This document shows, one piece after another, positions 5,281-26,517 of a DNA stretch of 64,000 nt. Under the pieces are notes generated by a model. It did not search any database. It was given only the letters and a program-made list of their open reading frames with translations, and was not told where the DNA came from. The DNA comes from Lautropia sp. (GTDB lineage: Bacteria > Pseudomonadota > Gammaproteobacteria > Burkholderiales > Burkholderiaceae_E). The first letter of the stretch is position 1; the number at the start of each line of letters is the position of its first letter. Location: positions 1-64,000 of the forward strand of contig JAUNKF010000015.1 of the NCBI GenBank assembly GCA_030532895.1, in the 5' to 3' direction. The position numbers and the translations under genes were made by a program.

Positions 5281-6486
5281 TCATACCCGTTCCATCATCA
5301 ATGCGATGCCCTGCCCCACGCCCACACACATCGTGCAGATCGCGTAGCGCCCGCCCGTGCGAACCAGCTGCCGCATGGCGGTCGTCACAAGCCTTGCACC
5401 ACTGGCGCCCAACGGGTGTCCCAACGCGATGGCGCCACCATTCGGGTTGACACGGGGATCATCATCGGCCAGCCCCAACTGCCGCAGGACGGCCAACCCT
5501 TGGGCCGCAAACGCCTCGTTCAACTCGATCACGTCCACCTGCGACAGGCGCAGGCCCGTGCGTGCCAACAGCCGCTCGACGGCCGGTACCGGGCCGATGC
5601 CCATCAGGCGCGGTGCCACACCGACACTGACGGTGGCCAGCACCCGTGCCCAGGGAGTCAGCCCATGACGGCGTACCGCCGCCTCACTTGCCAGCAAGAC
5701 GCAGGCCGCCCCGTCATTGACCCCACTGGCATTGCCGGCCGTGACCGACCCCTCAGGTTGAACCACGCCCTTCAACTTGGCCAACGCATCCAGCGTGGTG
5801 GCTCTCAGATGTTCATCCTGCGCAAACACCAGGGGCGGCCCTTTCTTTTGAAACAGCTCGACCGGCACGATCTCCTCATCGAACACCCCGGCCCGCTGCG
5901 CTTCGGCCGCCTTCATCTGACTGGCCAGCGCGAAACGATCCTGATCGGCCCGGCTGATGCCATACTCACGCGCGACGTGCTCGGCCGTCTCCGGCATCGA
6001 ATCGACCCCGTAAGCCGCGCGCATCCAGGGGTTGATGAAGCGCCAGCCGATCGTCGTGTCATGAATCTCATGCACGCGGGAGAAGGCATGCTCGGCCTTC
6101 GGCATCACGAAAGGGGCACGACTCATGCTCTCCACCCCCCCGGCCAGCATCAGCTCAGCCTCACCACACTTGATGGCCCGTGCCGCCGTCCCCACCGCAT
6201 CCAGGCCCGATCCGCACAGACGGTTGATCGTGGCCCCTGGCACCTGCTCAGGCAAACCGGCCAGCAGGGCTGCCATGCGCGCCACGTTACGGCTGTCCTC
6301 CCCCGCCTGATTGGCACACCCCAGCCAGACATCATCGATGGCCTCCACCGCCAAGGATGGCTGCCTGGCCAGCAATGCCTTGATCGGCATGGCCGCCAGA
6401 TCATCGGTGCGCACACCAGCCAAGGCCCCACCATAACGCCCGAAAGGGGTTCTGATCGCATCACAAATGAAAGCCTCACCCCTCAT
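5281..6486 (-). CDS. Acetyl-CoA acyltransferase (3-oxoadipyl-CoA thiolase-like)
   Basis: The 401-residue length is that of PcaF/PaaJ-type thiolases. The acylated cysteine lies in TINRLCGSGLDAVG near residue 91, and the C-terminal pair is GHPLGASGAR and CMCVGVGQG. It cleaves a 3-oxoacyl-CoA, probably 3-oxoadipyl-CoA or 3-oxopimelyl-CoA, at the end of ring-fragment beta-oxidation. Its ATG overlaps the stop of the upstream hydratase/dehydrogenase gene by 4 bp, so the two are translationally coupled. It is the last gene of the operon. Confidence 0.93.
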   Translation of the reverse strand: MRGEAFICDAIRTPFGRYGGALAGVRTDDLAAMPIKALLARQPSLAVEAIDDVWLGCANQAGEDSRNVARMAALLAGLPEQVPGATINRLCGSGLDAVGTAARAIKCGEAELMLAGGVESMSRAPFVMPKAEHAFSRVHEIHDTTIGWRFINPWMRAAYGVDSMPETAEHVAREYGISRADQDRFALASQMKAAEAQRAGVFDEEIVPVELFQKKGPPLVFAQDEHLRATTLDALAKLKGVVQPEGSVTAGNASGVNDGAACVLLASEAAVRRHGLTPWARVLATVSVGVAPRLMGIGPVPAVERLLARTGLRLSQVDVIELNEAFAAQGLAVLRQLGLADDDPRVNPNGGAIALGHPLGASGARLVTTAMRQLVRTGGRYAICTMCVGVGQGIALMMERV

Positions 6487-8663
6487 GGCCGCTCTCCTTC
6501 ACCCATGCCATGCACGGATCCGTTCTCTCCTCGATTCAGGCTGCCAAACGCCTTGCCCTCGGCCACGAGACGCACAAGCAAAGGTGCCGGCTGCCAAAAA
6601 TGGGGATCGTCTTTGGCAAAACGCTCGATATCGGCAAGCACGGCTGCCAAACCCTGGCTGTCGGCCCACCACATCGGCCCGCCCTGCCAGCGCGGAAAGC
6701 CATAGCCGAAGATCAGCGTCACATCCACATCCAGCGGGCGCAAGGCGATGCCTTCACCCACCACCTTGGCCCCCTCGTTCACGATGGCCACCATGATCCG
6801 ACGCACGATGTCCGCCGCGGTGAAGGTGCGCGCGCCGAGCCCCTTGCTGGCCCGCGCCTCAGCCACGATGGCCAGCACCTCATCATCCGGCAGGCCGCTT
6901 CGAGCACCCGGCTCGTAGCGGTAAAACCCCCGGCCTGTCTTCTGGCCGAACCAACCCCGTTCACACAAGTGATCGGCAATGGCCACATAGCGAGCGGCCG
7001 GATCACGCATCGGCGCCCGGCGCTTGCGCGTGGCCCAGCCAATATCGCCCCCGGCCAGATCGATGACCTGGTATGGCCCCATCGCAAAGCCGAACCCCCG
7101 CATCGCCTCGTCGATCTGATAAGGCGAGGCGCCGTCCTCCATCAGATGATCGGCGGCTTCCTTGTAGACCGCCCAGATCCGGTTGCCGATGAAACCATCG
7201 CAAACACCAGCCCGTACCGGCACCTTCCTCATCCGCCGGGCCAGCGCAAAAGCCGTGTCCACCACCTCGGGCAGCACGGTATCCGTCACGACGATCTCCA
7301 ACAACTTCATCAGATGAGCCGGGCTGAAGAAATGCAGCCCGATCACGGCCTGCGGCCGTGACGTGACGCCAGCAATCGACGGGATGTCGAGGTAAGAGGT
7401 GTTCGTCGCCAGCACCGCCCCCGGCTTGCAGACCCGATCCAGCTCACGGAACACCTGCTGCTTGACCGCCATGTCCTCGAAAACGGCTTCGATGACGAGA
7501 TCGGCCTCAGCCACGGCCTCAAAGCGGGTGGCCAGTTGCAAGCGGCCGAGCTTTTCGGCCAGTTTCACCTCGGGCAGCCGCCCTTTGGCCACCTGCGCCT
7601 CATAGAGCCGACGAACGTTGGCCTCTGCCCGCGATGCCGCCGCCGCATCCTGCTCCAGCATCACGACGCGAAACCCGGCATCCAGCGCCGCCACCGTGAT
7701 GCCTGCGCCCATGATGCCGCCCCCGACGACGGCAAGCTGCTCGAGCGGTCGAGGCGTCACCTCGCCTGACCAAGGCATTTTCTGCACCTCACGCTCGGCA
7801 AAGAAGACATGCACGAGCGCCGCGCGCTGCGGGCTGTCCATGCACGCCAGAAACGCAGCTCGTTCCTGGGCCAGCCCCTCATCAAAGGGCAGTTCGATGG
7901 CGGCCCGCACACAATCGATGATCCGTGCCGGCGCGAACAGAACGGGCTGTTTCTGCCTCGTGCGCTCGGCCAAAGCCGTCAAGGCGGCGAGGGCCTCGGC
8001 AGGTGACGACACCGACCTGTCCCGTGTGCGCCTCACCCCCTGGCCCGCGGCGAGCAGTCCTTGCGCATGCGCCAGCCCCGCAGCGAGCGGCTCATCTGCA
8101 TCGGCACACGCATCCACCAGCCCCGCTTCGTGTGCGGCCTCGGCCGACAAGGGCTTGCCATTCAGCATCAGCTCGGCTGCCGCCAAGGCCCCCATCAGGC
8201 GCGGTGCACGCTGGGTTCCGCCGGCGCCCGGCAACAACCCCAGTCGTGACTCGGGCAAGCCGAAGCGCGCCTTCGGCAAGGCCAGGCGGTAATGCGCCGA
8301 CATCGCCACCTCCAGCCCGCCGCCAAGCGCCACGCCCTGCACGACAGCCACCACGGGCTTCACGCAGGCTTCGATGCGATTGCACACGGTCGCCAACAGC
8401 GGAGGCTGCGGCGCTCGGCCAAACTCCCGAATATCGGCCCCTGCGATGAAGGCCGAACCCTCGCCCAGGATCAGGACGGCACGAACATCAGGCGCCTCAT
8501 CAAAAGCCACGACGGCATCGAGCAGACCACGGCGTACCGCCTGGCTCAAGGCATTCACGGGCGGATGATCGATACACACGACCCCGATACCATCCCGAAC
8601 GAAGGCGTTGACCACCGCCGTGCCATCACCCGGTGCGTCTTTCCTGGCCGCTGGCTGATTCAT
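6483..8663 (-). CDS. Fused enoyl-CoA hydratase / 3-hydroxyacyl-CoA dehydrogenase
   Basis: This 726-residue FadB/FadJ-like fusion has a crotonase domain at about residues 15-200 with the oxyanion-hole segment SAFIAGADIREF. The NAD-binding domain begins near residue 310 with VGGGIMGAGI, and a C-terminal dehydrogenase domain includes GFIGNR. It would hydrate an enoyl-CoA and oxidise the 3-hydroxyacyl-CoA. In this operon the substrate is probably the ring-opened or cyclohexenyl acyl-CoA from 2-aminobenzoyl-CoA, followed by the thiolase it is coupled to. A second crotonase lies upstream (11104-11994), which suggests that one of the two opens or hydrates the ring. Confidence 0.92.
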   Translation of the reverse strand: MNQPAARKDAPGDGTAVVNAFVRDGIGVVCIDHPPVNALSQAVRRGLLDAVVAFDEAPDVRAVLILGEGSAFIAGADIREFGRAPQPPLLATVCNRIEACVKPVVAVVQGVALGGGLEVAMSAHYRLALPKARFGLPESRLGLLPGAGGTQRAPRLMGALAAAELMLNGKPLSAEAAHEAGLVDACADADEPLAAGLAHAQGLLAAGQGVRRTRDRSVSSPAEALAALTALAERTRQKQPVLFAPARIIDCVRAAIELPFDEGLAQERAAFLACMDSPQRAALVHVFFAEREVQKMPWSGEVTPRPLEQLAVVGGGIMGAGITVAALDAGFRVVMLEQDAAAASRAEANVRRLYEAQVAKGRLPEVKLAEKLGRLQLATRFEAVAEADLVIEAVFEDMAVKQQVFRELDRVCKPGAVLATNTSYLDIPSIAGVTSRPQAVIGLHFFSPAHLMKLLEIVVTDTVLPEVVDTAFALARRMRKVPVRAGVCDGFIGNRIWAVYKEAADHLMEDGASPYQIDEAMRGFGFAMGPYQVIDLAGGDIGWATRKRRAPMRDPAARYVAIADHLCERGWFGQKTGRGFYRYEPGARSGLPDDEVLAIVAEARASKGLGARTFTAADIVRRIMVAIVNEGAKVVGEGIALRPLDVDVTLIFGYGFPRWQGGPMWWADSQGLAAVLADIERFAKDDPHFWQPAPLLVRLVAEGKAFGSLNRGENGSVHGMGEGERP

Positions 8664-8693: not shown

Positions 8694-9086
8694 TCAATCG
8701 GGCACGACCGCTGTCACCTCAATTTCGACCTTGGCGCGGTCTTCGACCAGATCAGCCACCTGCACCGCCGTCATCGCCACATTGAAATTGCCGATCAGCT
8801 CGCGATAAGCCTGACCGATTTCCCGATAAGCCCCCACATATGCCTGTTTGTCCTTCACATACCAGGTCATCCGCACGATATGCTCCGGCCCGGCATGCCC
8901 TTCGGCCAGCACCGCCACGATGTTCGCCAATGCCTGGCGCACCTGCCCCGCCAGATCATCGGTATGAAACACGCCTTGCGCATCCCAACCGATCATGCCG
9001 GCCACATAAATCTGCCGCCCACGCACCGACACGCCATTGGCATAGCCTTTGGGGCGAGGCCAGCCCTGGGGAAGAAGAACCTGCAT
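8694..9086 (-). CDS. RidA-family imine/enamine deaminase
   Basis: The protein has about 130 residues from ATG 9086, which has AAGGAG 8 bases upstream. A GTG at 9095 would add three residues but is too close to that site. RidA proteins hydrolyse reactive enamines and imines to ketones with release of ammonia. The family residues here include GRQIYVAGMIG, DLAGQVRQALANI and a C-terminal KVEIEVTAV. Reduction of 2-aminobenzoyl-CoA leaves an enamine on a non-aromatic ring, so a dedicated RidA that removes the nitrogen fits. RidA-like genes are known in 2-aminobenzoyl-CoA clusters. The exact substrate is inferred. Confidence 0.85.
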   Translation of the reverse strand: MQVLLPQGWPRPKGYANGVSVRGRQIYVAGMIGWDAQGVFHTDDLAGQVRQALANIVAVLAEGHAGPEHIVRMTWYVKDKQAYVGAYREIGQAYRELIGNFNVAMTAVQVADLVEDRAKVEIEVTAVVPD

Positions 9087-9197
9087 CTCATCCACTCCTT
9101 GGAATCAAAAGAACCCGTGCGCGGGCAACCGCGCAGCGCATGAACGCACGCCCAACCGGCCTGCGCCCACGCAGCAAATCAAACGACGGCCAGCCAC

Positions 9198-9671
9198 TCA
9201 TGACACGGGCCCCTGCGAAGCAGTCAGACTGGCATCGATTACCGCCCGAATGTCAGGCGGCATCGGGATGGCCTGATGAGAACGAAGATCGGTAAAGACC
9301 AGCACTTTTCTGGCCTCCACCCGGACATGCTCGGCATCCCGGCATTGCAGTTGAAGCGTCAGCGACTTGCCGCCCACCCGCTCTACCTTCAGACAGAGCA
9401 ACACCTCATCGCCCATCCGGCTGATGCGCCGAAAATCACTCTCCAGCCGAACGATGGGCAAGCCCAGCTTGCGCTCACCGATCATCGCCGCATAAGAAAT
9501 CCCCAACCCTTCGGTAAACCAATCTTCCACGAGCTGGTTGAAGAGCACCAGATACTGCGGAAAAAACACGATGCCAGCCGGATCGCAGTGAGAAAAACGT
9601 ATCCGGACCGGTCTGGTGAAATCCCCGTGGACATTGCTGACAGGTGCATCACTGCTGATGGATGCATTCAT
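9198..9671 (-). CDS. Hotdog-fold acyl-CoA thioesterase
   Basis: The protein has about 157 residues from ATG 9671, chosen because AGGCGG lies upstream at proper spacing. An open frame continues to 9758 without a better site. The segment RIRFSHCDPAGIVFFPQY carries the aspartate of 4-hydroxybenzoyl-CoA-thioesterase-type enzymes. It hydrolyses acyl-CoA thioesters. In an aromatic-CoA operon its probable role is to release CoA from dead-end or misprocessed intermediates such as 2-aminobenzoyl-CoA. Confidence 0.87.
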   Translation of the reverse strand: MNASISSDAPVSNVHGDFTRPVRIRFSHCDPAGIVFFPQYLVLFNQLVEDWFTEGLGISYAAMIGERKLGLPIVRLESDFRRISRMGDEVLLCLKVERVGGKSLTLQLQCRDAEHVRVEARKVLVFTDLRSHQAIPMPPDIRAVIDASLTASQGPVS

Positions 9672-9773
9672 GGGCATACCGCCTGTTTCAACGCAGACCG
9701 CCGTCACTTGCCGATGCTTGAACCCGCAACGTTGGGCACCGGAACCACTGGCGTGCATGACAAAACCTCCTGA

Positions 9774-10943
9774 TCAAGCCACCGACTCGGGCGGTGGCGA
9801 CATCGACTTCAACAGTTCCCGGCCGATGATCAATTGCTGCACTTCCGATGCGCCTTCATAAATGCGCAGTGCCCGAATCTCCCGATACAGTCGTTCGACG
9901 GGCTGCTCACACACCACCCCCAAGCCACCGAACAACTGCACGGCGGCATCGATGACCTGCTGGGCCTGCTCGGTGGCGGTGAGCTTGGCCATCGCAGCCT
10001 CTTTCGTCACCCCTTCACCCCGATCCCGCATCCACGCTGCCCGATACGTCAGCAAGGCTGCACTGTCGATGGCCGTTGCCATTTGCGCGAGCTTCGTCTG
10101 CGTGATCTGAAAATCCGCCAGCACGCCACCGAACATCTGGCGCGTGGTGACCCGATGCAAGGCTGCATCGAGTGCCTGGCGCGCAAAGCCCAGCGCTGCA
10201 GCCGCCACCGACGTACGGAACACATCGAGCGTGCGCATCGCCACCTTGAAGCCCTCACCCGGCTCGCCCACCCGATGGCTGACAGGGACACGACAAGCCT
10301 CGAAGCGCAATCGGGCCAACGGGTGCGGCGCCATCACCTCGATGCGCTCGGCTATCGTCAAGCCGGGCGTGTCGGCATCAACGATGAAAGCGCTGATGCC
10401 CCGCGCGCCCGGCGCCTCGCCGGTGCGTGCAAACACAAGATAAAAATCTGCAATGCCACCGTTCGAGATCCACATCTTCTCGCCATCGAGCACATAGGCG
10501 TCGCCGTCCAGGCGCGCCGCGCACTGCATGGCAGCCACATCCGAACCTGCCGATGTTTCCGACAACGCAAAGGCGGCCACGGCCTCACCTGCCACCACAC
10601 GGGGCAAATAGCGCTCACGCTGCGCCGGTGTGCCATGCAGGCTGATGGCGCCACTGCCCAGCCCTTGCATGGCAAACGCAAAATCGGCCAGCCCCGAATG
10701 CCGGGCCAGCGTTTCACGGATCAGGCAGATGGCGCGTGCATCCATCGCCACGGCCGATGTCCCCACCGCATGCTGCAACCAGCCGGCCTCACCCAACTGA
10801 CGCACCAGCTGCCGGCAATGGGCATCCACATCCCGCCCATGATGGGCCACCAGATGCTGCGATGCCCAGGCATCCAGCGCCAGCGCAAGCTCGGCATGAC
10901 GTGGCTCGAAAAAGGGCCACTGCAAATAGTGTCGATCACGCAT
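9774..10943 (-). CDS. Acyl-CoA dehydrogenase
   Basis: The protein has about 389 residues from ATG 10943, with GGGAGA 7 bases upstream; the overlapping GTG at 10946 is the alternative. The FAD/substrate segment [11 protein letters not shown] and the catalytic glutamate in [11 protein letters not shown] mark a medium/short-chain type enzyme. It would introduce an alpha-beta double bond into an acyl-CoA and pass electrons to ETF, which is not encoded here. In the pathway it would act either on the reduced ring carboxyl-CoA or on the opened chain. Confidence 0.92.
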
Positions 10944-11103
10944 CACCCTGTTCTCCCGTGCAAGGCTGCTCTGCGCGGCGGCCCGCCGCTTCCCACCATG
11001 CCACGACGCGGATGAATGCCAAACCGAAGGCGGGTGTCACACCTTGGATGGCATCCCCACCGCTCATGGACACACAATCCGAAAACGCTGCCATCAAACA
11101 CGC

Positions 11104-11994
11104 TCAATCCCCTTGAAACACCGGCTTTTGCTTGGCCACGAAAGCGTGATAGGCGCGTGAGAAATCTTCGGTCAGCATGCAGATGGCCTGCGCCTGCGCC
11201 TCGGCCTCGATCGCCTGTTCGATCGTCATGCTCCATGCCTGATGCAGCATCGTCTTCGTGATGCCATGGGCAAAGCTTGGGCCAGCAGCCAGCTCGGCTG
11301 CCAGGGTCTGGGCTTCGGGCAACAACACCCCCGGCTCACACAGGCGATTGAAAAAGCCCCAGCGCTCCCCCTCTTCGCCCCCCAGCACACGGCCCGTGTA
11401 CAGCAGCTCGCTGGCACGGCCCTGCCCGATGATCCGGGGCAGCATGGCGCAAGCCCCCATGTCGCAACCGGCCAGGCCCACCCGGTTGAAGAGGAAAGCC
11501 GTCTTGCTGCGCGCCGTGGCAAGCCGCAGATCGGAGGCCATCGCCATGATGGCGCCCGCTCCTGCGCACACACCATCCACCGCCGCAATGATCGGCTGCG
11601 GGCAAGCCCGCATCATTTTCACGAGCTCCCCCGTCATGCGGGTGAACATCAACAGCTCGGGCGCCTTCAAGCCCACGAGTGGCCCGATGATTTCATGGAC
11701 ATCCCCCCCCGAGCAGAAGTTGCCGCCTTCGCCGGTCAGCACCACGGCCTTGATGTCCTCGGCCCATTTGAGCTGATGGAAAAGGTCTCGCAACTCGGCA
11801 TAGCTGTCGAAGGTGAGCGGGTTCTTGCGATCAGGACGATTCAAGGTGATCGTGGCCACCTTGTCCTCAACCGCCCACAGAAAATGCTGGGCCTCGTAGC
11901 CTGCCATCGGCCTAAGATTGCCGGCGGCCAAGGCCGCATCCAGCGCTTTCCGGTCTTGTCCGTTCTGGTTCTGCTCAGTCATTTGCTGGCCCAT
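11104..11994 (-). CDS. Enoyl-CoA hydratase/isomerase family protein
   Basis: The protein has about 296 residues. Several ATGs lie close together (12000, 11997, 11994, 11982); GGGAG just upstream favours 11994-12000. A crotonase core begins near residue 45, with the oxyanion-hole segment [13 protein letters not shown] and [19 protein letters not shown]. The 40-residue N-terminal extension before the core is longer than in standard hydratases. It also fits the crotonase-type enzymes of aerobic aromatic-CoA operons that hydrate or open the ring. It lies between the SDR and acyl-CoA dehydrogenase genes. Confidence 0.9.
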
Positions 11995-12155
11995 CATCAT
12001 GCTCCCAAAAACCTGATTCATCCGACTCGCCGCGCACGGCCAACCCATCCGATCCGTGTCAGCTCAAACGCTCACCAACGGCTGGCCACACAGCCTTCCT
12101 CCTTGGCACACGCCTTCCTGAAGCGTTCAGGCCGTGCCTGGCAAGCACGACCCGC

Positions 12156-12920
12156 TCACGGCATCACCTCGCCCCCCGAGACCGAAATGGCTTGTCCGGT
12201 GATCGCGCCCGTACCCGGCCCACAGAGCCAAGCGACGGTTTCGGCCACTTCGACGGGCTTCACCAGACGTTGCTGCGGGTTCGTCCGCTCGAACTCGGCC
12301 CGTGCCTCCTCGGCTGAGCGGCCGGTTTTCGCCACCACACGCGCGATGCTCTCGTGAACGATATCGGTTTCGGTATAACCGGGGCACACGGCGTTCACCG
12401 TGATGCCCTTGCGCGCCAATTCAAGCGCGAGCGACCGGGTCAGTCCGATCACCCCATGCTTGGCCGCGCAATAAGCACTGACGTAGGCGTAACCGATCTG
12501 CCCGGCCGTACTGGCCACATTCACGATGCGCCCCCAGCCCGCCGCCAGCATGTCGGGCAACACCGCCTGTGTGCAAAGCATCGTGCCCGTGAGGTTCACT
12601 GCCAGCATCCGCTCCCAGAGCGCCAAGTCCGTTTTCATAAAAGGCGCACTCTCGGCCTGCCCAGCGTTGTTGACGAGCATGCCAACCGGCCCCCAGCTGG
12701 CACGTGCGTGGGCCAACGCGACCGCCACGGCAACCGGGTCGGTGACATCGGCTACCACCGCCTGCATCCGTTTCGGATGTCTGGCCACCAGCGCATCGAG
12801 CGCCGCACGGCCGCGGCCAAGCACCGTCACACGGCACCCCGCCTGCACCAGCCGCTCGGCAATGGCCGCACCGATGCCACGTGCGCCTCCCGTCACCAGG
12901 GCATGATGACCTTCTCCCAT
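12156..12920 (-). CDS. SDR-family dehydrogenase (3-hydroxyacyl-CoA type)
   Basis: The protein has about 254 residues from ATG 12920, which has AAGGGG 9 bases upstream. The open frame extends to 13031, but that part has no domain content. The Rossmann motif is TGGARGIG, followed by NNAG, and the active site is S in NVASTAGQ with YCAAK. It resembles 3-oxoacyl/acetoacetyl-CoA reductases. In this operon it probably oxidises an alicyclic hydroxyacyl-CoA or ring alcohol formed after the monooxygenase/reductase step. Confidence 0.88.
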   Translation of the reverse strand: MGEGHHALVTGGARGIGAAIAERLVQAGCRVTVLGRGRAALDALVARHPKRMQAVVADVTDPVAVAVALAHARASWGPVGMLVNNAGQAESAPFMKTDLALWERMLAVNLTGTMLCTQAVLPDMLAAGWGRIVNVASTAGQIGYAYVSAYCAAKHGVIGLTRSLALELARKGITVNAVCPGYTETDIVHESIARVVAKTGRSAEEARAEFERTNPQQRLVKPVEVAETVAWLCGPGTGAITGQAISVSGGEVMP

Positions 12921-13006
12921 TGAATTCGCCCCTTGACAGGAGGCCGAAGCATCATGCCCAGGCGACGACGCCTCGCATCTCGACATGCTTGTCATCCCAG
13001 CCCCCG

Positions 13007-15349: not shown

Positions 15350-15396
15350 GCTGGCTCCTGTTCTTTCATCACGTTCCCCCTGATCGGGCAGCTGCT

Positions 15397-17160
15397 TCAA
15401 GCCCGAGCGGCAGCCCCCCGTTCGCCCAAGGCATGAGGCAGCCCGGCCTCGCCAGGATTTGCTGCCTCATCCAGCCCCTGAATGCCGCTGGCCGCCAGGG
15501 CGCGCTTCAATTGCTCCCCCGCTTCATCGGCCAGCGCTGCCTCGCGCCAGCCTTTGAGCATGGCGGGCGTCAAACGCTCACCCGCTTGCCGCATGGCATC
15601 GAACAACATCCGGTAATGACGCAGCCCCCGCGCATGCGTGTCGCCATACCCCTTCACCAGGCGCTGACAGCGGATGATTTCCAATGCCAATGCCGGATCA
15701 CGCTGTGCAGCGCGCGCCGCCAGATCCAGCCACGCCTCGATCATCGCGTTCTCTCGCTCATAACGCAGCGAATGCAGACGCCAGCGCGCGGCCCACGCCA
15801 CGGCACGCAGCAGCAGATAGCCGTGAATGGAATTGCTGTGAATCACCCGCCCCTGACGTGTGAAACGCTCGACCAGCGTGCGCGCCCAGCCGGGCTGCAT
15901 CAGCCACCGCCCCAGCGAGGCCGGCAGGGTTTCACACACTTCCTGCAAGCGCGGGTGCATGAACTCATGAATGTCGAGCAAATGCTCGCCCGCCTTGGCT
16001 TCTGCCCGGACCCGTTCAAAACGACTGCCTCGGGTTTTGAGGTCGGCCACGCGCGCCGTGTCTTCAAAGGTCATCCACAAGGCCAGATGACGGGCCGTCT
16101 CTCGCAGCAACACCCGTTCGCCCGCGCCCACCCGGTGCTGCATCTGGTCGAGCCTGTCCAGATACAGCGTCGCATAGGCCACATCCTGGTAATCGACGAG
16201 CCGACGCAGGCCGGCCCATAACACCGCATGCATCGCCACCGGGAACTGCTGCCTGACTCGTGCGATCAATGCCTGGATCTCGGGCACCGCGCTTGACGGC
16301 AGCGGCCCGTCCTCCGATGCCGCCAGCGCATCGTCCGACAGTCTTCGCGCATCACCGGTCGGCTCATCAGCCCCTGCTGTCGTCGGCGCCAGCTTCAGAT
16401 GGCTGACAGCAGGACGGCGTGTTTGACGCTGACTCTCGCCGTTTTCCCCTGCGGCCTCGCCTGCCTCCGATACGAAGGCAAGATCGGCACGCGCTTCGGC
16501 CATCGACCCATCATTTGCAGCTGGATGGGCATCCTGTTGCACAGCCTCATACGCCCTGCCAAAAGCGGCAAGACTGGTCTTCACCCCGATCCCACCTCGC
16601 TCGATCGTGGCCTCGAACTGCTCCCGCGAAAAAGGCAGCACCCCACTGCCCGCCAAGGCACCGAAAAGCACGGCGCTGATCACGCTACCGGCCTTCAATG
16701 CAGCCTCCGCCATGTCAAAGCAGATGAAGCGCTCGGCCGCCGTGGCCGCATGGGCAAGCAATTGCTGACTGTCCACCCGGCCATCACCCATCGCGCTTTT
16801 CTCGGTCATCGAATACACGCGATGGCTCGATGCGATCAACGTCGTGCGATCCGGTGTGACGAGGCCGCGCTGCACGGCACGACCCGCTTCCATCAACTCT
16901 GACGCGAGTACCACATCCACATCGCCGGGCAACGGCATCAAGGCAAGCACCGGTGCTTGGCCGGCCTCATCGGCCGCAGCCTTGGGGAACAGCTCGACGT
17001 AGTAGATGGTGGCGCCCGTGCGCTGTGCCACCCCAGGCACCGACGTGGTCTGCGCCAGATACCCGGCCGATTCGCCCAGGCTGACGATCCAGTCGGCCAG
17101 CACCCCGCCGCCTTCGCCGCCCATCGCCAGAATGGCCATCTTGATCGGTTGAACGCTCAT
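15397..17160 (-). CDS. Indolepyruvate oxidoreductase beta-like subunit with C-terminal DUF6537-like domain
   Basis: The protein has 587 residues. Residues 1 to about 200 form a 2-oxoacid:ferredoxin oxidoreductase gamma-type domain, with [14 protein letters not shown] near the N-terminus. A hydrophilic, Ala/Glu/Ser-rich linker spans about residues 205-285. The rest is a helical domain of the kind that trails IOR subunits in aerobic proteobacteria (DUF6537-like). It pairs with the alpha subunit encoded 15 bp upstream. The complex would oxidatively decarboxylate an aryl 2-oxo acid to an acyl-CoA. Annotation tools would call the substrate indolepyruvate. The context suggests isatinate (2-aminophenylglyoxylate) instead, as an inference. 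Confidence 0.85.
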
Positions 17161-19518: not shown

Positions 19519-20068
19519 CGTGGCTCCTGCGTCACGCACCTGCATGCCACGACGGGCACACCCGGCACGGATGTCTCCTTGAGACCCCGTCGTCTCCCAC
19601 GATGCCAGGCGATGACGCCATGCTGCCGACGGATACCCCAGTCCAAGGCGCAGCGCTTCAGGCATGCGCTTCAGAAGGACTGGGGGAAAGCCGCCGTGAG
19701 CACCCGAGGGAAAACGTCCGGTCTCCTATTGTTGAAGCTCAGTTTATTTAAGACTAAAGCTTTCCGGGATTCTGTAAAACCCTATGCTACCGAGCACACA
19801 CGTTTTGAGCGGATTTGTACAAACAGTTCGCAGATTCTTGATATCGGATGCAGAAATTGGACACAGTTTTTCATCACATCGGGTTTTCCTTGAAGATGCG
19901 GCCTCCCCGCAGTAGTAGGATTTCTCACGGAGACACAGGGATGACCGCAAAGCGTCCACGTCAAGACGCTTCCCCCCGAGCAGATGCGGGGCCTTTCAGG
20001 AAACGCGCATCACGCTCGTGGCACGTGCCAAACCAGCCAGAACGGTCAGCCCCAGGGAGATGCCCGTC
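19519..20068. promoter_or_regulatory. Divergent control region between the oxidoreductase operon and araC-type gene
   Basis: This 550-bp region has no convincing gene and a distinctly AT-richer core (about 19735-19900). On the minus strand, short direct repeats TCTGC, TCTGC and TCCGC lie at 19850-19854, 19830-19834 and 19809-19813, spaced 20-21 bp, or two helical turns. Such phasing is typical of AraC-family binding sites. A 10-bp palindrome TTTGTACAAA (19814-19823) lies within the array. The regulator encoded at 20069 is the obvious candidate binder, controlling the operon that starts at 19518. Confidence 0.5.
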
Positions 20069-21097
20069 ATGCCACATGCTCACGCCCTGACAGAGGATCA
20101 TGCGAACAGCGCCCTTCATGCCATCGAGCGCTTTCTCTGTGCGCCCGAATGCCTGCTGTTCGCATCAGGCGACCTCGACGAAGTCCGCTCGATGGTCGGC
20201 CGCGTGATGAAGCCACACCGTTTGCAGCTGTGCGGCCTCACCCATCGGCTGGCCGCCCGGATGCATCACCGCAGCCTGGGCGACCTCTCGATCAGCCGCC
20301 TTCGCTACGGCGCAGCCGTCCGGATCGACCCCGGCCCGCTGGAGGACTTCTTTCTGATCCAGATGCCACTGTCCGGCCGTGCCGCCATCCGCTGCGGCAG
20401 CTGTCAAATCGAATCCGACAGTCACCTCGCCTCGGTGATCAGCCCTGATGACGACACGCAGATGCAATGGCACGACGGCAACGACCAGCTGCTGCTCCGG
20501 CTCTCCCGCTCACTCGTCGAACGCACCCTGATCGGCTACCTGGGCCATCCACTGGATGCCCCCTTGCGCTTCGAGCTGGGCTTTCGGTGGCGCGACAGCG
20601 CCCCCTGGTGCAGCACGCTGGCCTACCTGCTGGCCTGCGTCGTGCAACATGCTGACCCCCATCTCGACACCCACAAGCTGGTGCGCTCACAGATGGAACA
20701 GCTCTGCGCCTCGATCCTGCTCAGCAGCCACCAGCACAACTACAGCCAGTCTCAGCCCTCACGACGCAGCACCGTGCTGCCTCGCCACGTTCGGCGTGCG
20801 CAGGACTACCTGCAGGCCCACGCCCACGAAGCCATCACCGTCGATCAGCTCGCCGCCATCGCCGGCGTCAGTGCACGCAGCCTGTATGCAGGTTTTCAGA
20901 CGTTTCTGCAAACCAGTCCGATGAGTTATCTGCGCGAACTCCGGATGGAACGGGCACGCACCGAATTGCTGAGTGGCGAGGCCTCCAGCGTGGCCGGCGT
21001 GGCCTTGCGCTGGGGCTTTGCCCACATGGGGCGCTTCGGCCTCGACTACAAGAAGCGCTACGGTGAAAGCCCCAGTCAGACCCTCCGCCGTGTTTAG
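20069..21097 (+). CDS. AraC-family transcriptional regulator
   Basis: The protein has about 342 residues from ATG 20069, with AGGGAG 9 bases upstream; the open frame reaches back to 20018. The N-terminal part (to about residue 210) resembles the AraC_binding_2/AraC-binding-like domain of aromatic-acid regulators. The last 100 residues are a double helix-turn-helix: ITVDQLAAIAGVSARSLYAG and the second unit AGVALRWGFAHMGRFGLDYK. It lies between the two catabolic operons and faces both, divergent from one and convergent with the other. It is probably the pathway activator responding to an indolic or aminobenzoate inducer. Confidence 0.9.
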   Translation: MPHAHALTEDHANSALHAIERFLCAPECLLFASGDLDEVRSMVGRVMKPHRLQLCGLTHRLAARMHHRSLGDLSISRLRYGAAVRIDPGPLEDFFLIQMPLSGRAAIRCGSCQIESDSHLASVISPDDDTQMQWHDGNDQLLLRLSRSLVERTLIGYLGHPLDAPLRFELGFRWRDSAPWCSTLAYLLACVVQHADPHLDTHKLVRSQMEQLCASILLSSHQHNYSQSQPSRRSTVLPRHVRRAQDYLQAHAHEAITVDQLAAIAGVSARSLYAGFQTFLQTSPMSYLRELRMERARTELLSGEASSVAGVALRWGFAHMGRFGLDYKKRYGESPSQTLRRV

Positions 21098-21166: not shown

Positions 21167-22774
21167 TCAGCGCTGGCTGAGCCGATTGGCCACCATCGTG
21201 CCCGAGCCGGCGCCCAAGCCCGGCCCCGGATGCGTCGAGGCGCCAATATGAAAAACATTGGCCACCGGCGTCTGATGCGCCCGCGCACCGCCCGTGGCAG
21301 CAAACGGCCTGAACCAGAAGAATTGATCCGGCGAGCAGATGCCCGAATACGGGTCTCCTCCCACCAGATTGACATTCAGGCGCGCCAGATCGGCTGGCGA
21401 ATAAGCCCGCCGCCCGACGATCCGCTCGGCGAGCCCCGGCATCACGCCTTCCAGGCGCTGCTGCACCCGGTCAGCAAAGGCTTCGCGCACGGCCTCGTTC
21501 CACAGCCCATCTGCCGGCACCTCGATTTGCCCGGCGGCATCGCCCAGCAGTCGGGTTGGCAGCTCCTGCATCTGAATCCACAAGATCCAGCCACCTGCCG
21601 GCGCACGCGACGGGTCGACTGCCACCGGCTGACCAATGCCCAGCGTCGGCCGGGCAGGCAACAATCCATTGCGCGCCTCCGTCACCGACAGGCACACCTG
21701 CGCCATGCTCTCGGTGAGATGCACGAGCGGCACCTTCAGCAGCTCGGGCGAGCGCCACTGGGGCGGCGACTTCAGCGCAAAATGCAATTGCATGCAGCCA
21801 CGTCCATAACGGTAGGCCCTGGCCTTCTCGCGCACCGCCGTCGGCACGTCGGGCAACAACTGCTCGTAGAGCTGCTGGGGCGTCACATTGCACACGACAG
21901 CTTCCGAAGCCGGGTGCTCGGTTCCATCGGCCAGACGCACACCCCGAGCCAAGCGCTTTCTGCCCTGCCCGGCCAGCAGGATGGTGCTGACCTCGGTACC
22001 CGTGCGGCATGCCCCGCCTCTCGATTCGATGATCCGTTGCAAGGCGTCCACCAGCTGGCTTCCACCTCCCTTGATCACCGGCATCCCGCCGCTGACCACC
22101 GCCGCAAAGGTGAGCTTGCCGATCAGTGCCGAGCCGGCATCGTCCGGCCCCAGGCCCGTGTGCAGCGTCCACGGTGCCATCAAGGCCCGCGACAGATCCG
22201 ATCGAAAATGCGTCGATGACCAGCGCCTGAAACTCTCCAGTCCTTCGGCAGCAAAAGCCATCAGCCCATCCAGCCCCTTGGCCCGCCAGGCGCGATAGAG
22301 CACGCCCAACGTCTGGCGGCTGTATGGGTTGTTGCCCAACAACCCGAAAAGCAGTGGCGCATCTTCACCCAAGAGCTTGCGGGCCATCTGCCGCAAGGCA
22401 TCCCCGTCTCCGGGCGCCAGCGCATCCAGCTGTCGGGCCGTGCCTTCCAGATCCTGCGGCAGCGCGATGCCCTGACCATCAGGCAGCACCAGCCCGGTGG
22501 TGTGATCACCGCTCAGAATCACCAGCCCGGCCTCATCCAGTGCCGGCTTCAACTCCGCATAGGCCGGGCTGCCCACGAAGAGCGGATGCCACGAGGAGAA
22601 AACCTCGTGCAGGTAGCCCGGAAAAAGCGCCTCCGTCCGGATGCAACCGCCCAGTCGATCGTTACGCTCCAGCACCAGCACACGCTTGCCACGCACCGCC
22701 AGCAGCGCGGCCCCCACCATCGAGTTGATGCCACTGCCCACGAAAATGACCTCGGCCTCAGCCCCCGCCGTCAT
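21167..22774 (-). CDS. Phytoene-desaturase-like FAD-dependent oxidoreductase
   Basis: The protein has 535 residues. The N-terminal dinucleotide-binding motif FVGSGINSMVGAALLAVRGK is followed by LERNDRLGGCIRTE. A C-terminal FAD segment includes GASTHPGPGLGAGSGT. This is the CrtI/amine-oxidase fold, but no carotenoid genes are present. Its ATG overlaps the cyclase stop by 4 bp, so it belongs to the StyA-like operon as the last gene. The context suggests dehydrogenation of an indoline-type intermediate (for example dioxindole to isatin). No specific substrate residue supports this beyond context. Confidence 0.85.
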   Translation of the reverse strand: MTAGAEAEVIFVGSGINSMVGAALLAVRGKRVLVLERNDRLGGCIRTEALFPGYLHEVFSSWHPLFVGSPAYAELKPALDEAGLVILSGDHTTGLVLPDGQGIALPQDLEGTARQLDALAPGDGDALRQMARKLLGEDAPLLFGLLGNNPYSRQTLGVLYRAWRAKGLDGLMAFAAEGLESFRRWSSTHFRSDLSRALMAPWTLHTGLGPDDAGSALIGKLTFAAVVSGGMPVIKGGGSQLVDALQRIIESRGGACRTGTEVSTILLAGQGRKRLARGVRLADGTEHPASEAVVCNVTPQQLYEQLLPDVPTAVREKARAYRYGRGCMQLHFALKSPPQWRSPELLKVPLVHLTESMAQVCLSVTEARNGLLPARPTLGIGQPVAVDPSRAPAGGWILWIQMQELPTRLLGDAAGQIEVPADGLWNEAVREAFADRVQQRLEGVMPGLAERIVGRRAYSPADLARLNVNLVGGDPYSGICSPDQFFWFRPFAATGGARAHQTPVANVFHIGASTHPGPGLGAGSGTMVANRLSQR

Positions 22775-23571
22775 GCCTGCCCCTCCACCAAGGCCAGCAC
22801 CCGCAAGGGACTGCCCGAGCCTTCCTGAATTTTGAGCGGAGCTGACAGGATCACCGCCCCGGTCGGTGGCAACTGATCAAGGTTTGTCAGGCACTGCAGA
22901 CCATAGCGATTGGCCCCATGCATCAGCGTGTGGCAAGGATAGGCAATCGGCCAGGCATAAGACTGTCCCGCATCGGTATTGATGGTTTCCACCCCAAAGC
23001 CGTGCACCCCACGCTGATGAATCATCCACTCGACCGCCGCCTGCGTGGGGCCGGGTGTATGCGCACCATCCTCCCGCATGCCGACGAAAGCCGCCGGATC
23101 GACCAGACGCTTGGACCAGTCGGTGCGGAACAGCACCCAGGCACCGGCCGGAATCCGGCCATGCCTCTTTTCCCACTGTTCGAGGTAATCGACCGTGAGC
23201 AACCAGTCATCATCGTGCGCCAGTTCGGCACTGGCATCCACCACCACGGCCGGCGCCACGAAGTGTGCCGGCTCGATGGTGTCCACCGTGTTGTTGGGCT
23301 GATCACGCCCGCTGATCCAGTGTGCCGGGGCATCGAAATGCGTGCCCGTATGCTCGCCACAGGAAAAATTGTTCCAGTACCACCCTGGCCCCTTGTCGTC
23401 GTACTTGGAAATCCGCTCGATCGTGAAGGGCTTGACCTGCGCAAATTGCGGCGGCAACTGCAACGTGGGAAATTCGGGCGAGAGTGTCTGCGTGAGATCG
23501 ACCACGCGCACGCGGCCGCTGAGCAACCCCTCGGTCAGCGCATTCAGCACAGGAGCAATCGATGTGTTCAT
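22771..23571 (-). CDS. Cyclase-family metal hydrolase, isatin-hydrolase-like
   Basis: The protein has 266 residues, longer than the approximately 210 of kynurenine formamidases and close to isatin hydrolases. The metal-binding motif HTGTHFDAPAH spans residues 74-84 (H74, H78, D80, H84). In this family it binds Mn or Zn and hydrolyses cyclic or acyl amides, for example isatin to isatinate. The neighbouring StyA-like monooxygenase makes isatin the more likely substrate than N-formylkynurenine. No tryptophan dioxygenase or kynureninase is in the window. Confidence 0.85.
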   Translation of the reverse strand: MNTSIAPVLNALTEGLLSGRVRVVDLTQTLSPEFPTLQLPPQFAQVKPFTIERISKYDDKGPGWYWNNFSCGEHTGTHFDAPAHWISGRDQPNNTVDTIEPAHFVAPAVVVDASAELAHDDDWLLTVDYLEQWEKRHGRIPAGAWVLFRTDWSKRLVDPAAFVGMREDGAHTPGPTQAAVEWMIHQRGVHGFGVETINTDAGQSYAWPIAYPCHTLMHGANRYGLQCLTNLDQLPPTGAVILSAPLKIQEGSGSPLRVLALVEGQA

Positions 23572-23604: not shown

Positions 23605-24228
23605 CTAGGTCGGCAAATTGGCCGGATGCGGTGCCGTGATCGACACGAAACGCCCGGCATGAAAGACGAGCGGATCCCCAGGCTGCGTGGCGGCACGGAC
23701 GACCCGCCCCACCATCAGCAGGTGATCACCGACCGTGCGGGCATGATCCAGCGCGCAGACCAACGTGGTCAGCGCGCCGTCGAGCGCTGGCACGCCTTCG
23801 GGCGTTTCCTGCACCGGGACCGACTCGAATTTGTCCACCACGCTCGGGTTCGCAAAGCGACGCGCCAACTCTTCATGCCGGCCAGCCAGGATGTTGATGG
23901 CAAAGTGCCGACAATCCCGGAACACGGCCAGGCTGGGTGAATGATTGACCAGGCTCCACAACACGAGCGGGGGGTCGAGCGAGAGCGAGGCAAAGGAATT
24001 GATCGTCAGCCCCACCTTCCGACCTTCGACCGAACGGCTGGTGACGATGGCCACACCCGTTGGGTAGGCGCCGAACAGCTTTCTCAAGGTGGCCGGCGCC
24101 ACATCCTCACTGCCCCAGGCCGCCGGGCACACGGCGGCGGCTGCCTCCGTGGCTGCAACGGCCACGGTGGCCGCGCCGTGACCGGCATGACCTGTGGCTG
24201 ACATCGATGAAACCGCCTGCTCGCCCAT
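23605..24228 (-). CDS. Flavin reductase (StyB/HpaC-like)
   Basis: The protein has about 207 residues from ATG 24228, preceded by AAGGGGGG; the open frame extends to 24327 without supporting features. An unusual Ala-rich N-terminal tail of about 40 residues precedes the flavin-reductase domain (LRKLFGAYPTGVAIVTSR, then GLTINSFASLSLDPPLVLW). It would supply reduced FAD to the StyA-like monooxygenase encoded immediately upstream, as in two-component styrene and indole monooxygenases. Confidence 0.9.
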   Translation of the reverse strand: MGEQAVSSMSATGHAGHGAATVAVAATEAAAAVCPAAWGSEDVAPATLRKLFGAYPTGVAIVTSRSVEGRKVGLTINSFASLSLDPPLVLWSLVNHSPSLAVFRDCRHFAINILAGRHEELARRFANPSVVDKFESVPVQETPEGVPALDGALTTLVCALDHARTVGDHLLMVGRVVRAATQPGDPLVFHAGRFVSITAPHPANLPT

Positions 24229-24239
24229 GTTCCCCCCTT

Positions 24240-24269
24240 GGCGCGTGTCATGCACGCCTTCGTTCCTGC
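24240..24269 (-). repeat. 30-bp intergenic repeat, diverged copy
   Basis: On the minus strand the conserved end TGCATGACACGCGCC is intact and the GC-rich end is degraded (GGAACGAA in place of GGGGACGAA). It occupies the gap between the monooxygenase and flavin reductase genes. Confidence 0.5.
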
Positions 24270-24323
24270 AACGCTTTGGCTGATGAAGGCCGCGCACCTC
24301 AGCGACAGATGCGCCCCTGCTCG

Positions 24324-25565
24324 TCATGCAGCCCGTGCCTGCTGTTCATACTGGCCCAACAAATCGTCAGCAGCCTTTTCATCTTCCCACCAGGGGAAAT
24401 ACACCGAAGGCGTGTTGAAACCATTGGCCATCAGGCTCGCCAGCGCCGGATATCGCTGCGCGGCCGCCAGTACCTTCGGCAGATGCGCCGCCGGTGACAG
24501 CATGCCATTCGTCCAGCGCACGACCTCACCCGCATAAGCCCAGTAACGCGCGAAGGTCTCCTCCATCCAGTCACGCGTGAAAGGCTGATCGGCGCGCGCA
24601 AGAATGGCATCCAGATACACCTTCGCAGCCATCGTGGCGTTGTTCGAGCCTTGGCCCGTGATCGGATCATTCAGCACGACCGCATCGCCCATGCCCAGCA
24701 CCAGCCGGCCCGAAGGCAGCGTCATCACCGGCTTGCGCACCGTGGGCGGGAAAGCCCCCGACAGCACGCCTCCCGCATCCGTCAGCTCGACCTTGGCCGC
24801 CCGCTCGCCTTCCCACGGCAGATAGGTTTCCAGAAAGCGCTTGCTCACCGCCAGATGCGCCTCGGGTGTTTTCACGTCTCGCCAGCAATCCAGCGGCCCA
24901 CCGGGCACGCCCTCAAACACCATGATGTCGCAGGGGCCACTCAAGGTCAGCGCCGGAAAGACGAAATACTCGCCAATGCCCGGCATCAGGTTGAAAGACA
25001 CGCGCGAATACTCGGGCGTGGGCGCCAGCCCATGCACATAGGTGAGCGCCAGTGCCCGTTGAGGTTTATCGAAGGGTGAGCGCGAAGCGTCGCGCTCGAA
25101 GAGGCGGACGACCTCACCCTTGCCTGCCGCCATGATGACCAGATCATGCTGTTGCGTGAGCTGCTCCAACGCCGCCACATCCACATCCTGGATCACGAGC
25201 TTGCCGCCCGCCGCCTCGAAACGTTCCATCCACGCCGGCATTTTCAGGCGCTGATCAACCGATTGCGCCGGCTTGTCGAGACGTGCGTGCCAATCGACCG
25301 CCTTCTGGCCGGGATGGGCCGGGTCAGGTACGGCAAAACCGATGCCTTCCACATTGGGGCAATGATCCTGCCATTCATCGATGCCCAGATCGCGCTCGAC
25401 CTGCAATTTCATGTCGAACATGCACTGACTCGACAGCACCTTGCCGCCCCGAATCTCATCGGGCGTGCGGTTGGTGAAAACACTCACCTCATAGCCCTTT
25501 TGCAACAGGCCGAAAGCCACCGGAAAGCCCGATTGCCCACCGCCCACGATGGCAATTTTTCGCAT
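24324..25565 (-). CDS. StyA-like FAD monooxygenase (styrene/indole epoxidase)
   Basis: The protein has 413 residues from ATG 25565, which has a strong AAGGAGG; this is the StyA length. FAD binding is marked by IVGGGQSG near the N-terminus and GMGDAVVLNDPITGQGSNNA around 290-305. Segments such as FTNRTPDEIRGGKVLSSQCM resemble the styrene-monooxygenase oxygenase component. Proteins of this family oxidise indole to its 2,3-epoxide (IndA of Cupriavidus, IifC of Acinetobacter). It depends on a separate reductase, encoded next in the operon. Styrene itself is less likely because no styrene-oxide isomerase or phenylacetaldehyde dehydrogenase is present. Confidence 0.9.
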   Translation of the reverse strand: MRKIAIVGGGQSGFPVAFGLLQKGYEVSVFTNRTPDEIRGGKVLSSQCMFDMKLQVERDLGIDEWQDHCPNVEGIGFAVPDPAHPGQKAVDWHARLDKPAQSVDQRLKMPAWMERFEAAGGKLVIQDVDVAALEQLTQQHDLVIMAAGKGEVVRLFERDASRSPFDKPQRALALTYVHGLAPTPEYSRVSFNLMPGIGEYFVFPALTLSGPCDIMVFEGVPGGPLDCWRDVKTPEAHLAVSKRFLETYLPWEGERAAKVELTDAGGVLSGAFPPTVRKPVMTLPSGRLVLGMGDAVVLNDPITGQGSNNATMAAKVYLDAILARADQPFTRDWMEETFARYWAYAGEVVRWTNGMLSPAAHLPKVLAAAQRYPALASLMANGFNTPSVYFPWWEDEKAADDLLGQYEQQARAA

Positions 25566-25621
25566 GGTTCTCCTCCTTGGTGCGTGGCCTGCACGTCGTG
25601 CCACGCGCATCCTTCATGCAA

Positions 25622-25649
25622 TGCGTATCCGGCATGGCTTCGTCCCCAC
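25622..25649 (-). repeat. Intergenic repeat, weak copy
   Basis: The minus strand begins GTGGGGACGAAG and keeps an ATGC core and ACGCA end of the dispersed repeat. It lies between the SDR and the StyA-like gene, with a small hairpin CTTCGTCCCCACGAAG at its right end. Confidence 0.4.
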
Positions 25650-25728
25650 GAAGCGACTTGCGACATCTGGCGTGTGTGCCATACGCTCAGCAGCGCGTTG
25701 GCAGGGGAAAACCATGCTTGCGTCTTGG

Positions 25729-26517
25729 TCAATCAGCCAGACGTGGAATGGCCGGCACCGCCTGCTCCGGCCCCATCGCCGAATAGCCGCCATCGACGGC
25801 ATAATCGGCCCCCGTCACGAAACTCGCCTCATCCGAGAGCAGAAAAGCCACCACCGCGCCCACCTCGGCGGGGTTGCCCACCCGACGGATCAGGTGATAA
25901 TCGGCCGCCACCTGATCGGTTTTTTGCCGGTTGCCCCCCGTGATCTCGTCCATCACGCGCGACCATGTCCAGCCAGGCGACACCGAATTGACCCGGATGT
26001 GGTCGGGCGCAAAATCCATCGCCATGTTCCGGGTGAGTTGCATCAGCCCAGCCTTCGAGACCGGATACAACCACCGGGCCGTTTGCGCGACCTTGGCCGA
26101 GATGCTGGTGACATTGACGATGGCGCCACCCCCCTGGCGAACCAGATACGGCCGCACGGCACGGGCCATCATCACGGCACTGACCAGATTGACATCCAGA
26201 GCCGTCAACCAGTCCTGGCGTCCCGAGGCGGCGCCGTCATCCAGATAGGTGGCGGCCAGATTCACCAGACAATCGATGCGTCCAAAGTGAGACGCCACCA
26301 AATCAATTGCCTCGGTAATCGCTTCATCGTTGGTGATGTCCACCGACCAGAAGCGACAGCTGGCCGGATCATCTCCCGCCACGCGCGCGCCCCCCACGTC
26401 ATCCACATCGAAAATCGCGACCCGAACGCCCGCCTCGCGCAGCCGTTCGATGACGCCCGCACCGATCAACGTGGCGCCACCGGTCACGATGGCAACCTTG
26501 CCATTCAGACCCTTCAT
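25729..26517 (-). CDS. SDR-family oxidoreductase of the indole-type operon
   Basis: The protein has about 262 residues from ATG 26517 (GGAG 6 bases upstream). It carries TGGATLIGAG, NLAAT, S in NVTSISAK and the YPVSK catalytic pair. It is the first gene of the minus-strand operon that continues with the StyA-like monooxygenase. In Acinetobacter the comparable SDR (IifB) oxidises the indole dihydrodiol to 3-hydroxyindolin-2-one, and a similar role is plausible here. It is distinct from the acyl-CoA-type SDR at 12.2 kb. Confidence 0.87.
   Translation of the reverse strand: MKGLNGKVAIVTGGATLIGAGVIERLREAGVRVAIFDVDDVGGARVAGDDPASCRFWSVDITNDEAITEAIDLVASHFGRIDCLVNLAATYLDDGAASGRQDWLTALDVNLVSAVMMARAVRPYLVRQGGGAIVNVTSISAKVAQTARWLYPVSKAGLMQLTRNMAMDFAPDHIRVNSVSPGWTWSRVMDEITGGNRQKTDQVAADYHLIRRVGNPAEVGAVVAFLLSDEASFVTGADYAVDGGYSAMGPEQAVPAIPRLAD

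Follow-up and report, generated by a model that had tools for sequence, protein, structure and literature searches.

Gene clusters have been described for the breakdown of indole, of the auxin indoleacetic acid (IAA), and of 2-aminobenzoyl-coenzyme A (2-aminobenzoyl-CoA), and a locus of Lautropia sp. (order Burkholderiales) shares parts with each of them. It lies on contig JAUNKF010000015.1 of assembly GCA_030532895.1, of which positions 1 to 64,000 were analyzed (this whole stretch of 64,000 nucleotides is called the window, and coordinates refer to it). The locus encodes a protein pair, IorA and IorB (IorAB), that carries the automatic name of an indolepyruvate oxidoreductase. We put a probability of about 0.7 on a different role, drawn from comparative genomics, in which IorAB is an isatinate:acceptor oxidoreductase that forms 2-aminobenzoyl-CoA. 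The cluster as a whole is probably an aerobic indole catabolic supercluster.

Among the described indole clusters, iif of Acinetobacter and ind of Cupriavidus encode a StyA-like oxygenase, a flavin reductase, and a short-chain dehydrogenase/reductase (SDR) (PMC6221969), and all three are found together in the window. According to the review of these clusters, no iif gene has been linked to the formation or use of isatin (PMC6221969), whereas the window has an isatin hydrolase and IorAB. The indole cluster of Providencia rettgeri GS-2 (GS-A to GS-R) shares with the window a cyclase, an SDR, a styrene-monooxygenase-like protein, a flavin reductase, an oxidoreductase, and an AraC-type regulator (PMC9871250), and in the P. 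rettgeri genomes L102 and L111 such an operon adjoins IorAB. However, the genes 3' of IorAB in these two genomes are not those of beta-oxidation; they code for a protein 60-61% identical to the 2-aminobenzoyl-CoA monooxygenase/reductase (ABM) of the window, along with a cupin, an FAA hydrolase, a CN hydrolase, and an Amdase. The GS-2 paper also proposes a catechol route, and its main text contains neither "indolepyruvate" nor "CoA" (PMC9871250).

The iad loci of Variovorax and Bradyrhizobium, which degrade IAA, contain the same pair under the names iadA/iadB (iorA/iorB) (PMC9613470, PMC3788728), and the Variovorax IorA falls into the same clade as that of the window. They also contain an isatin-hydrolase-like cyclase, and the published route runs through isatin and isatinic acid to anthranilic acid as the end product, with no role given to iadA/iadB in the text passages available (PMC9613470). 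Upstream they differ in having a Rieske oxygenase and the ligase IadF, assigned to the IAA side chain, rather than StyA. For the steps after 2-aminobenzoyl-CoA, the counterpart is the Azoarcus evansii-type pathway, in which ABM stands with beta-oxidation-like genes (PMC4539516). On plasmid pSmeAK21a of S. meliloti and in Pseudochrobactrum, the ABM operon has the same gene order as in the window, and it is preceded by a gene for an AMP-binding protein. Operons of this type include an AMP-forming ligase, whereas the operon in the window has none and begins with IorAB.

The isatin hydrolase and the IorAB pair

Of all functional assignments in the cluster, that of the cyclase (22771..23571, minus strand; PF04199), encoded in the first of two operons, has the firmest basis. 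A phmmer search of PDB sequences matched it to the solved isatin hydrolase 5nmp at E 2.7e-145 and to three more isatin hydrolases, the weakest of them at E 5.4e-80 (4j0n). The original prediction had noted an isatin-hydrolase motif; the likeness now amounts to clear homology with solved enzymes, and the protein very probably converts isatin to isatinate. Because of this match, isatinate is the expected product at this point of the route. Isatinate is 2-aminophenylglyoxylate, an aryl 2-oxo acid. A known enzyme, phenylglyoxylate:acceptor oxidoreductase, converts benzoylformate and CoA to benzoyl-CoA and CO2, and its aryl 2-oxo acid lacks only the 2-amino group. It belongs to an anaerobic pathway and differs in subunit make-up, and its likeness to IorAB lies in the proposed chemistry.

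IorA (17176..19518, minus strand), a thiamine-diphosphate/iron-sulfur alpha subunit, heads the second operon and is followed by IorB (15397..17160, minus strand), a beta subunit with POR and DUF6537 domains (PF01558, PF20169). The open reading frame (ORF) of IorA runs from 19665 and appears too long: in relatives the protein starts at residue 50 (consensus MAERSF), AGGAG precedes an ATG at 19518, and the start is probably there, 49 codons in. Residues G595-D596-G597 and N625 are invariant in 52 aligned rows, and we take them to be the thiamine-diphosphate motif GDG...N. The cysteines C524, C527, C554, C700, C734, C740, C746, C770, C773, C776, and C786 are equally invariant and are presumably iron-sulfur ligands, so that IorA carries both features of the 2-oxoacid:acceptor oxidoreductase superfamily. 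IorB is the sole PF01558 match in the genome, which has no match to PF01855. A search of PDB sequences with IorA returned one weak match, a phenylpyruvate decarboxylase (E 0.0004), and the same search with IorB returned none.

The relationship between IorA and isatin genes can be seen in a tree of 82 non-redundant IorA proteins, built with a quick search. The IorA of the window falls in a clade of 54 rows (SH-aLRT 100, stem 0.47), with 28 rows outside. When isatin hydrolase, StyA/CrtI, iad Rieske/IadF, and ABM or cupin genes are counted as neighbors at set identity thresholds, 41 of the 54 clade rows lie near isatin, iad-auxin, or 2-aminobenzoyl-CoA pathway genes, compared to none of the 28 others. 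Isatin hydrolase itself (at least 45% identity) is near 31/54 rows of the clade and 0/28 outside it (Fisher 3e-8), or 28/46 and 0/20 when both flanks are at least 4 kb long. Outside the clade, no cyclase match was seen at E 1e-8 at any identity, and there was one ABM match at 38%. The clade is separated from the remaining rows at 17 positions, among them D624 (K in 27 of the 28 outside), which adjoins the invariant N625, and G633 (T in all 28), eight residues further on. One clade pair, on plasmid pBPS33-2 (L135), lies beside Rieske, glutamine-synthetase, and amidotransferase genes, with no isatin genes near; the ORFs of L232 match it in size.

These results bear on the automatic names, by which IorAB would be a true indolepyruvate (or phenylpyruvate) oxidoreductase placed here by chance or for the catabolism of tryptophan. 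IorB does score above the cut-off of NF006179, "indolepyruvate oxidoreductase subunit beta family" (684.8 bits versus 348), a model for a subfamily and not an equivalog. IorA, however, reaches 281.3 bits against the cut-off of 650.9 for TIGR03336 (IOR_alpha) and therefore stands outside the curated IOR-alpha equivalog. In the established pathways, neither indole nor IAA is degraded through indolepyruvate. In B. japonicum, 1 mM IAA induces iorA about 31-fold (bll3411, alpha subunit, 30.7-fold) and iorB 7.6-fold (bll3410, beta subunit) (PMC3788728), both of which we assume to belong to the clade; indolepyruvate comes before IAA, so this induction is not accounted for by the annotated reaction. 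The pair also occurs with isatin hydrolase in both indole (StyA) and auxin (iad) clusters, and the loci outside the clade lack any match to that enzyme. A dedicated indolepyruvate enzyme is thus very unlikely.

The AMP-forming ligase

In the window, the genes for an acyl-CoA dehydrogenase (9774..10946, minus strand; PF00441, PF02770) and a 4HBT thioesterase (9198..9758, minus strand; PF13279) are 15 bp apart, and this junction (9759..9773) is where relatives carry the gene for an AMP-forming ligase. The original prediction had seen no such ligase in the window, and the operon has none. In L184, whose ABM operon is the nearest one in the order sample (ABM 79%), the ligase lies at 13599-15242, and in L264, from the same genus, at 3714-5405, in both cases between the dehydrogenase and the thioesterase. 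L264 is the one other whole cluster of the genus that was examined (G016 also matches IorB, on a contig of 4.5 kb). It covers the region between StyA and HPPD, each of these two in part, and matches the window there save for the ligase, found in L264 only, and a thiolase, found in the window only (5281-6486, between the hydratase/dehydrogenase and HPPD; 486-684 of L264 compared).

The search for a 2-aminobenzoate-CoA ligase was extended to whole genomes. The Lautropia genome (G000) has 20 AMP-binding matches, none of them orthologous to the ABM-operon ligase (33% at best). ABM has matches at E 1e-100 in 44 of 300 genomes sampled from the order. The match is full-length in 41, and all 41 were searched: the ABM-type ligase is present at 52% or more in 38 (in G216 over part of its length) and was not found in G000, G320 (36%), and G127 (nothing at 1e-100; ABM only 44%). 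IorAB is present in two of these three, G000 and G320. In three other genomes (G154, G363, G335), the cluster has neither ligase nor IorAB, and the ligase lies elsewhere in the genome. At the level of loci, the ABM-type ligase accompanies ABM in 1/33 loci with IorAB versus 28/41 without it (Fisher 2e-9, for loci that are phylogenetically non-independent), or in 2/34 with IorAB if L264 is added by hand. Queries and flanks differed between the two groups of loci, and the window and L264 were left out of the first count; L079 and L204 are apparently the same contig, and L199 was scored as lacking IorAB although IorAB lies 18 kb away.

The missing ligase could also be incidental, reflecting a recent loss in a strain that degrades indole poorly or with a ligase in trans, and the retention of the ligase in L264 fits this view. 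The genes of the cluster, however, look constrained, with dN/dS of 0.06-0.17 in seven genes compared with L264 (IorA 0.11, IorB 0.14; dS >1, so that the values are rough). In addition, a recognizable ABM-type ligase is likewise missing from other genomes with IorAB and ABM, namely G320 and three reached through their IorAB loci: Providencia rettgeri G368, Vibrio sp. S9_S30 (G369), and Burkholderia anthina G370 (34% at best). An incidental loss is accordingly most improbable.

A proposed step from isatinate to 2-aminobenzoyl-CoA

In the route that we propose, the StyA-like oxygenase and its flavin reductase would oxidize indole, the SDR would form dioxindole, and the CrtI-like flavoprotein would oxidize dioxindole to isatin. 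Ring opening by the isatin hydrolase would then give isatinate, and this is the surest step because of the strong homology. The central claim is that IorAB would convert isatinate and CoA to 2-aminobenzoyl-CoA and CO2 by oxidative decarboxylation, with the electrons passed to an acceptor, after which ABM and the beta-oxidation enzymes would complete the route. The 2-aminobenzoate-CoA ligase, which spends ATP and whose gene is missing from the window cluster, would be bypassed. Such a bypass was already part of the original prediction, and it has gained from the identity of the isatin hydrolase, the tie between the IorA clade and isatin-pathway genes, the absence of the ligase from the operon, and the lack of an orthologue in the genome. 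The argument that ligase and IorAB exclude each other was too strong.

Several observations count against an isatinate oxidoreductase. L264 and the Tsukamurella plasmid L139 keep both IorAB and an ABM-type ligase, so IorAB alone does not displace the ligase, and strict mutual exclusivity was rejected. Since the two can coexist, the loss in the window is best read as a case in which IorAB made the ligase dispensable, and not as a rule. Ten further genomes or records were reached through IorAB loci, and seven of them hold an ABM-type ligase somewhere; the presence of ligase and IorAB per genome was therefore considered too weak as evidence by itself. Conversely, 13 of the 41 ABM loci without IorAB, L199 among them, also lack an adjacent ABM-type ligase. 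Within the IorA clade, 13/54 rows have no pathway neighbors; L056, L072, L086, and L099 sit on contigs that are short or cut, which does not explain the other nine (L121, L129, L135, L233-L236, L266, L267). No gene for an electron acceptor was recognized in the IorAB operon. Enzymes of the 2-oxoacid oxidoreductase superfamily are often oxygen-sensitive, while this pathway needs O2.

The remaining objections concern free anthranilate, which isatinate might yield spontaneously, through peroxide, or through IorAB acting without CoA, leaving an AMP-forming ligase elsewhere to make 2-aminobenzoyl-CoA. Anthranilate has been reported from organisms that degrade indole or IAA (PMC9613470, PMC6221969, PMC9871250), and the nine-gene region iadC-K2 of Variovorax, which by its gene names does not include iadA/B, restores anthranilic acid levels (PMC12633357, a preprint), so isatinate can become anthranilate without iorAB. 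A protein of the benzoate-CoA-ligase family in the Lautropia genome (G000:C2:89645-91414; TIGR02262, 553 bits) could stand in as the anthranilate-CoA ligase, and no match to boxB was found in this genome, in a search without a positive control over the cut-off. This orphan is, however, 33% identical to the ABM-operon ligase of L184, adjoins purine genes, and looks like a core gene of the genus since seven of the eight other members have it, of which only G016 and G019 have an IorB match. It is one of the 20 AMP-binding matches of the genome. Free anthranilate as the intermediate would leave the frequent adjacency of IorAB and isatin hydrolase unexplained, and we consider it unlikely.

The same preprint reports that C8H7NO3 and C7H7NO strongly accumulate only when the whole iadC-K2 region is overexpressed and rules out N-formylanthranilate as the C8H7NO3 compound; its main text never mentions iadA or iadB (PMC12633357). 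A C8H7NO3 product is also reported for P. rettgeri GS-2, whose operon resembles the upstream one of the window, and was named N-formylanthranilic acid (PMC9871250). By our own arithmetic, C8H7NO3 is the formula of isatinate and C7H7NO that of 2-aminobenzaldehyde, and the accumulation of C8H7NO3 with iadC-K2 fits a missing consumer of isatinate. Thiamine enzymes are able to decarboxylate without oxidation, and IorAB might act on isatinate in this way, releasing 2-aminobenzaldehyde for oxidation by a dehydrogenase, with the C7H7NO of the Variovorax strains as its trace. That compound, however, arises from a region lacking the pair, IorA keeps the invariant iron-sulfur-type cysteines, and the Pfam matches of the two operons include no aldehyde dehydrogenase. 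We give the aldehyde very little credence, and an isatinate oxidoreductase remains the preferred reading. A literature search of titles and abstract openings, with subscription journals mostly outside it, found no report of IorAB acting on isatinate, and this supports novelty only weakly. Mutants of iadA/iadB in Pseudomonas LY1 (PMC8383072) were dropped as evidence, as the iad names there denote iac-type genes.

Gene layout and neighborhoods in other genomes

ORF and profile searches show two minus-strand operons with one plus-strand AraC gene between them, every gene being an open frame, in agreement with the genes and order first named. The first operon opens with the SDR (25729..26571; PF13561, E 3.6e-57), whose match to NF006121 begins at residue 19, or position 26517, the end of the range originally given and a likely start; a role like that of a dihydrodiol dehydrogenase is possible. 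The flavin oxygenase (24324..25610; PF17885, E 1.4e-45) scores 220 against the cut-off of 550 for the NCBIfam StyA model, short of equivalog level, and the earlier wording "StyA-like" is apt. It is 63% identical to its P. rettgeri homologue in L102 and is probably the indole oxygenase. Its flavin reductase (23605..24327; PF01613, E 2.4e-38) precedes the isatin hydrolase, and the CrtI/amine-oxidase-like flavoprotein (21167..22774; PF01593, E 3.7e-16) may, judging from gene position alone, oxidize dioxindole to isatin. The AraC-family regulator (20018..21097, plus strand; PF14525 and HTH_18) is divergent from the IorAB operon and matches an AndR-like model below its cut-off. No Rieske oxygenase (IadDE) of the iad auxin type is among the Pfam matches of the cluster.

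In the second operon, IorAB is followed by ABM (13007..15400, minus strand; PF00724, PF01494), a fusion of an FAD_binding_3 monooxygenase and an old-yellow-enzyme-like Oxidored_FMN domain that scores 1358.8 bits with NF006101 (cut-off 1078). NCBIfam names this family salicylyl-CoA 5-hydroxylase, so the substrate is taken from the gene context, an operon with beta-oxidation genes in the same order as in L132 and L133. The other minus-strand genes are those for an SDR (12156..13031; PF00106), which has the same place in L132, L133, L184, and L264, an enoyl-CoA hydratase (11104..12048; PF00378), a RidA-family protein missing from the original list (8694..9095; PF01042, E 2.8e-20), an enoyl-CoA hydratase/3-hydroxyacyl-CoA dehydrogenase fusion (6483..8663; PF02737, PF00378), and the thiolase (5281..6486; PF00108, PF02803). 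A PqqE-like radical SAM/SPASM protein and a TENA/PQQC-family protein (26787-28958) adjoin the indole cluster and suggest PQQ biosynthesis, and a hydantoinase_A/oxoprolinase-type protein lies at 60219-62393.

A scan of genome contigs with IorA, from which the best 80 loci were taken (30 titled Variovorax), found IorB (at least 40%) in 79, isatin hydrolase (at least 55%) in 63, an iad-type Rieske protein (55%) in 33, an ABM homologue (48%) in 29, of which 27 have the cupin protein (60%), and StyA (50%) in 10. Eight loci have no cyclase, ABM, or Rieske protein, five of them on short or cut contigs. The cluster is not a chance assembly, because L264 is nearly collinear with it and StyA, cyclase, AraC, and IorAB occur together in 10 of these 80 more distant loci.

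Beside IorAB, two upstream modules (StyA and iad) and two downstream types can be told apart. The first downstream type, ABM with SDR, hydratase, and acyl-CoA dehydrogenase, is found in the window and L264. A similar ABM (67-78%) is accompanied by SDR and hydratase in L097 and by SDR in L136, which is cut off at its edge; the L081 locus also has such an ABM, but no hydratase. The second, an ABM-like protein (56-63%) with cupin, FAA hydrolase, CN hydrolase, and Amdase (Pfam names from representative proteins), is found in Providencia, Xenorhabdus, Vibrio, and Burkholderia. From these families, it may carry out 5-hydroxylation and ring cleavage of 5-hydroxyanthranilate, then lead through maleamate and maleate to fumarate. 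Providencia and Xenorhabdus are animal- or insect-associated enterobacteria, and L101-L103, L111, L112, L113, and L120 from them carry a StyA-to-IorAB-to-second-type cluster. A 5-hydroxyanthranilate/gentisate route is described in Nocardia (PMC4539516). All 10 StyA loci have the second type, while the window and L264 join StyA to the first; iad genes occur with a first-type-like ABM in L136, L081, and G320 (L225 and L199, about 18 kb apart). A fourth combination, iad-type genes with 5-hydroxylation, was dropped since the Caballeronia loci L093 and L098 have no Rieske match. On plasmids of Ruegeria pomeroyi, Shinella, and Sulfitobacter (L140, L141, L142), IorAB stands with thioesterase, cupin, FAA hydrolase, CN hydrolase, and Amdase, with no ABM homologue within 10 kb; speculatively, their substrate is perhaps already 5-hydroxylated, as from 5-hydroxyindoles.

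We lean slightly toward a broader claim, in which isatinate:acceptor oxidoreductase activity, with 2-aminobenzoyl-CoA as product, is the dedicated function of the IorAB clade, and the pair joins at least two upstream modules (StyA indole and iad auxin) to at least two downstream ones, ABM with beta-oxidation, and ABM-like 5-hydroxylation followed by cupin dioxygenase, FAA hydrolase, amidase, and Amdase via 5-hydroxyanthranilate and maleamate to fumarate. In that case, the iad auxin pathway would end in 2-aminobenzoyl-CoA, and the reported anthranilate would be a leak.

If the proposal holds, a mis-named enzyme pair in the auxin- and indole-degrading clusters of Proteobacteria, and of at least one actinobacterial plasmid, would have a function. 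The gap between isatinate and ring cleavage would be closed, with the ATP of the ligase step saved, and the iad auxin pathway would have a different end product from the one now accepted. The role of anthranilate in the catabolism of indole and IAA would become directly testable.

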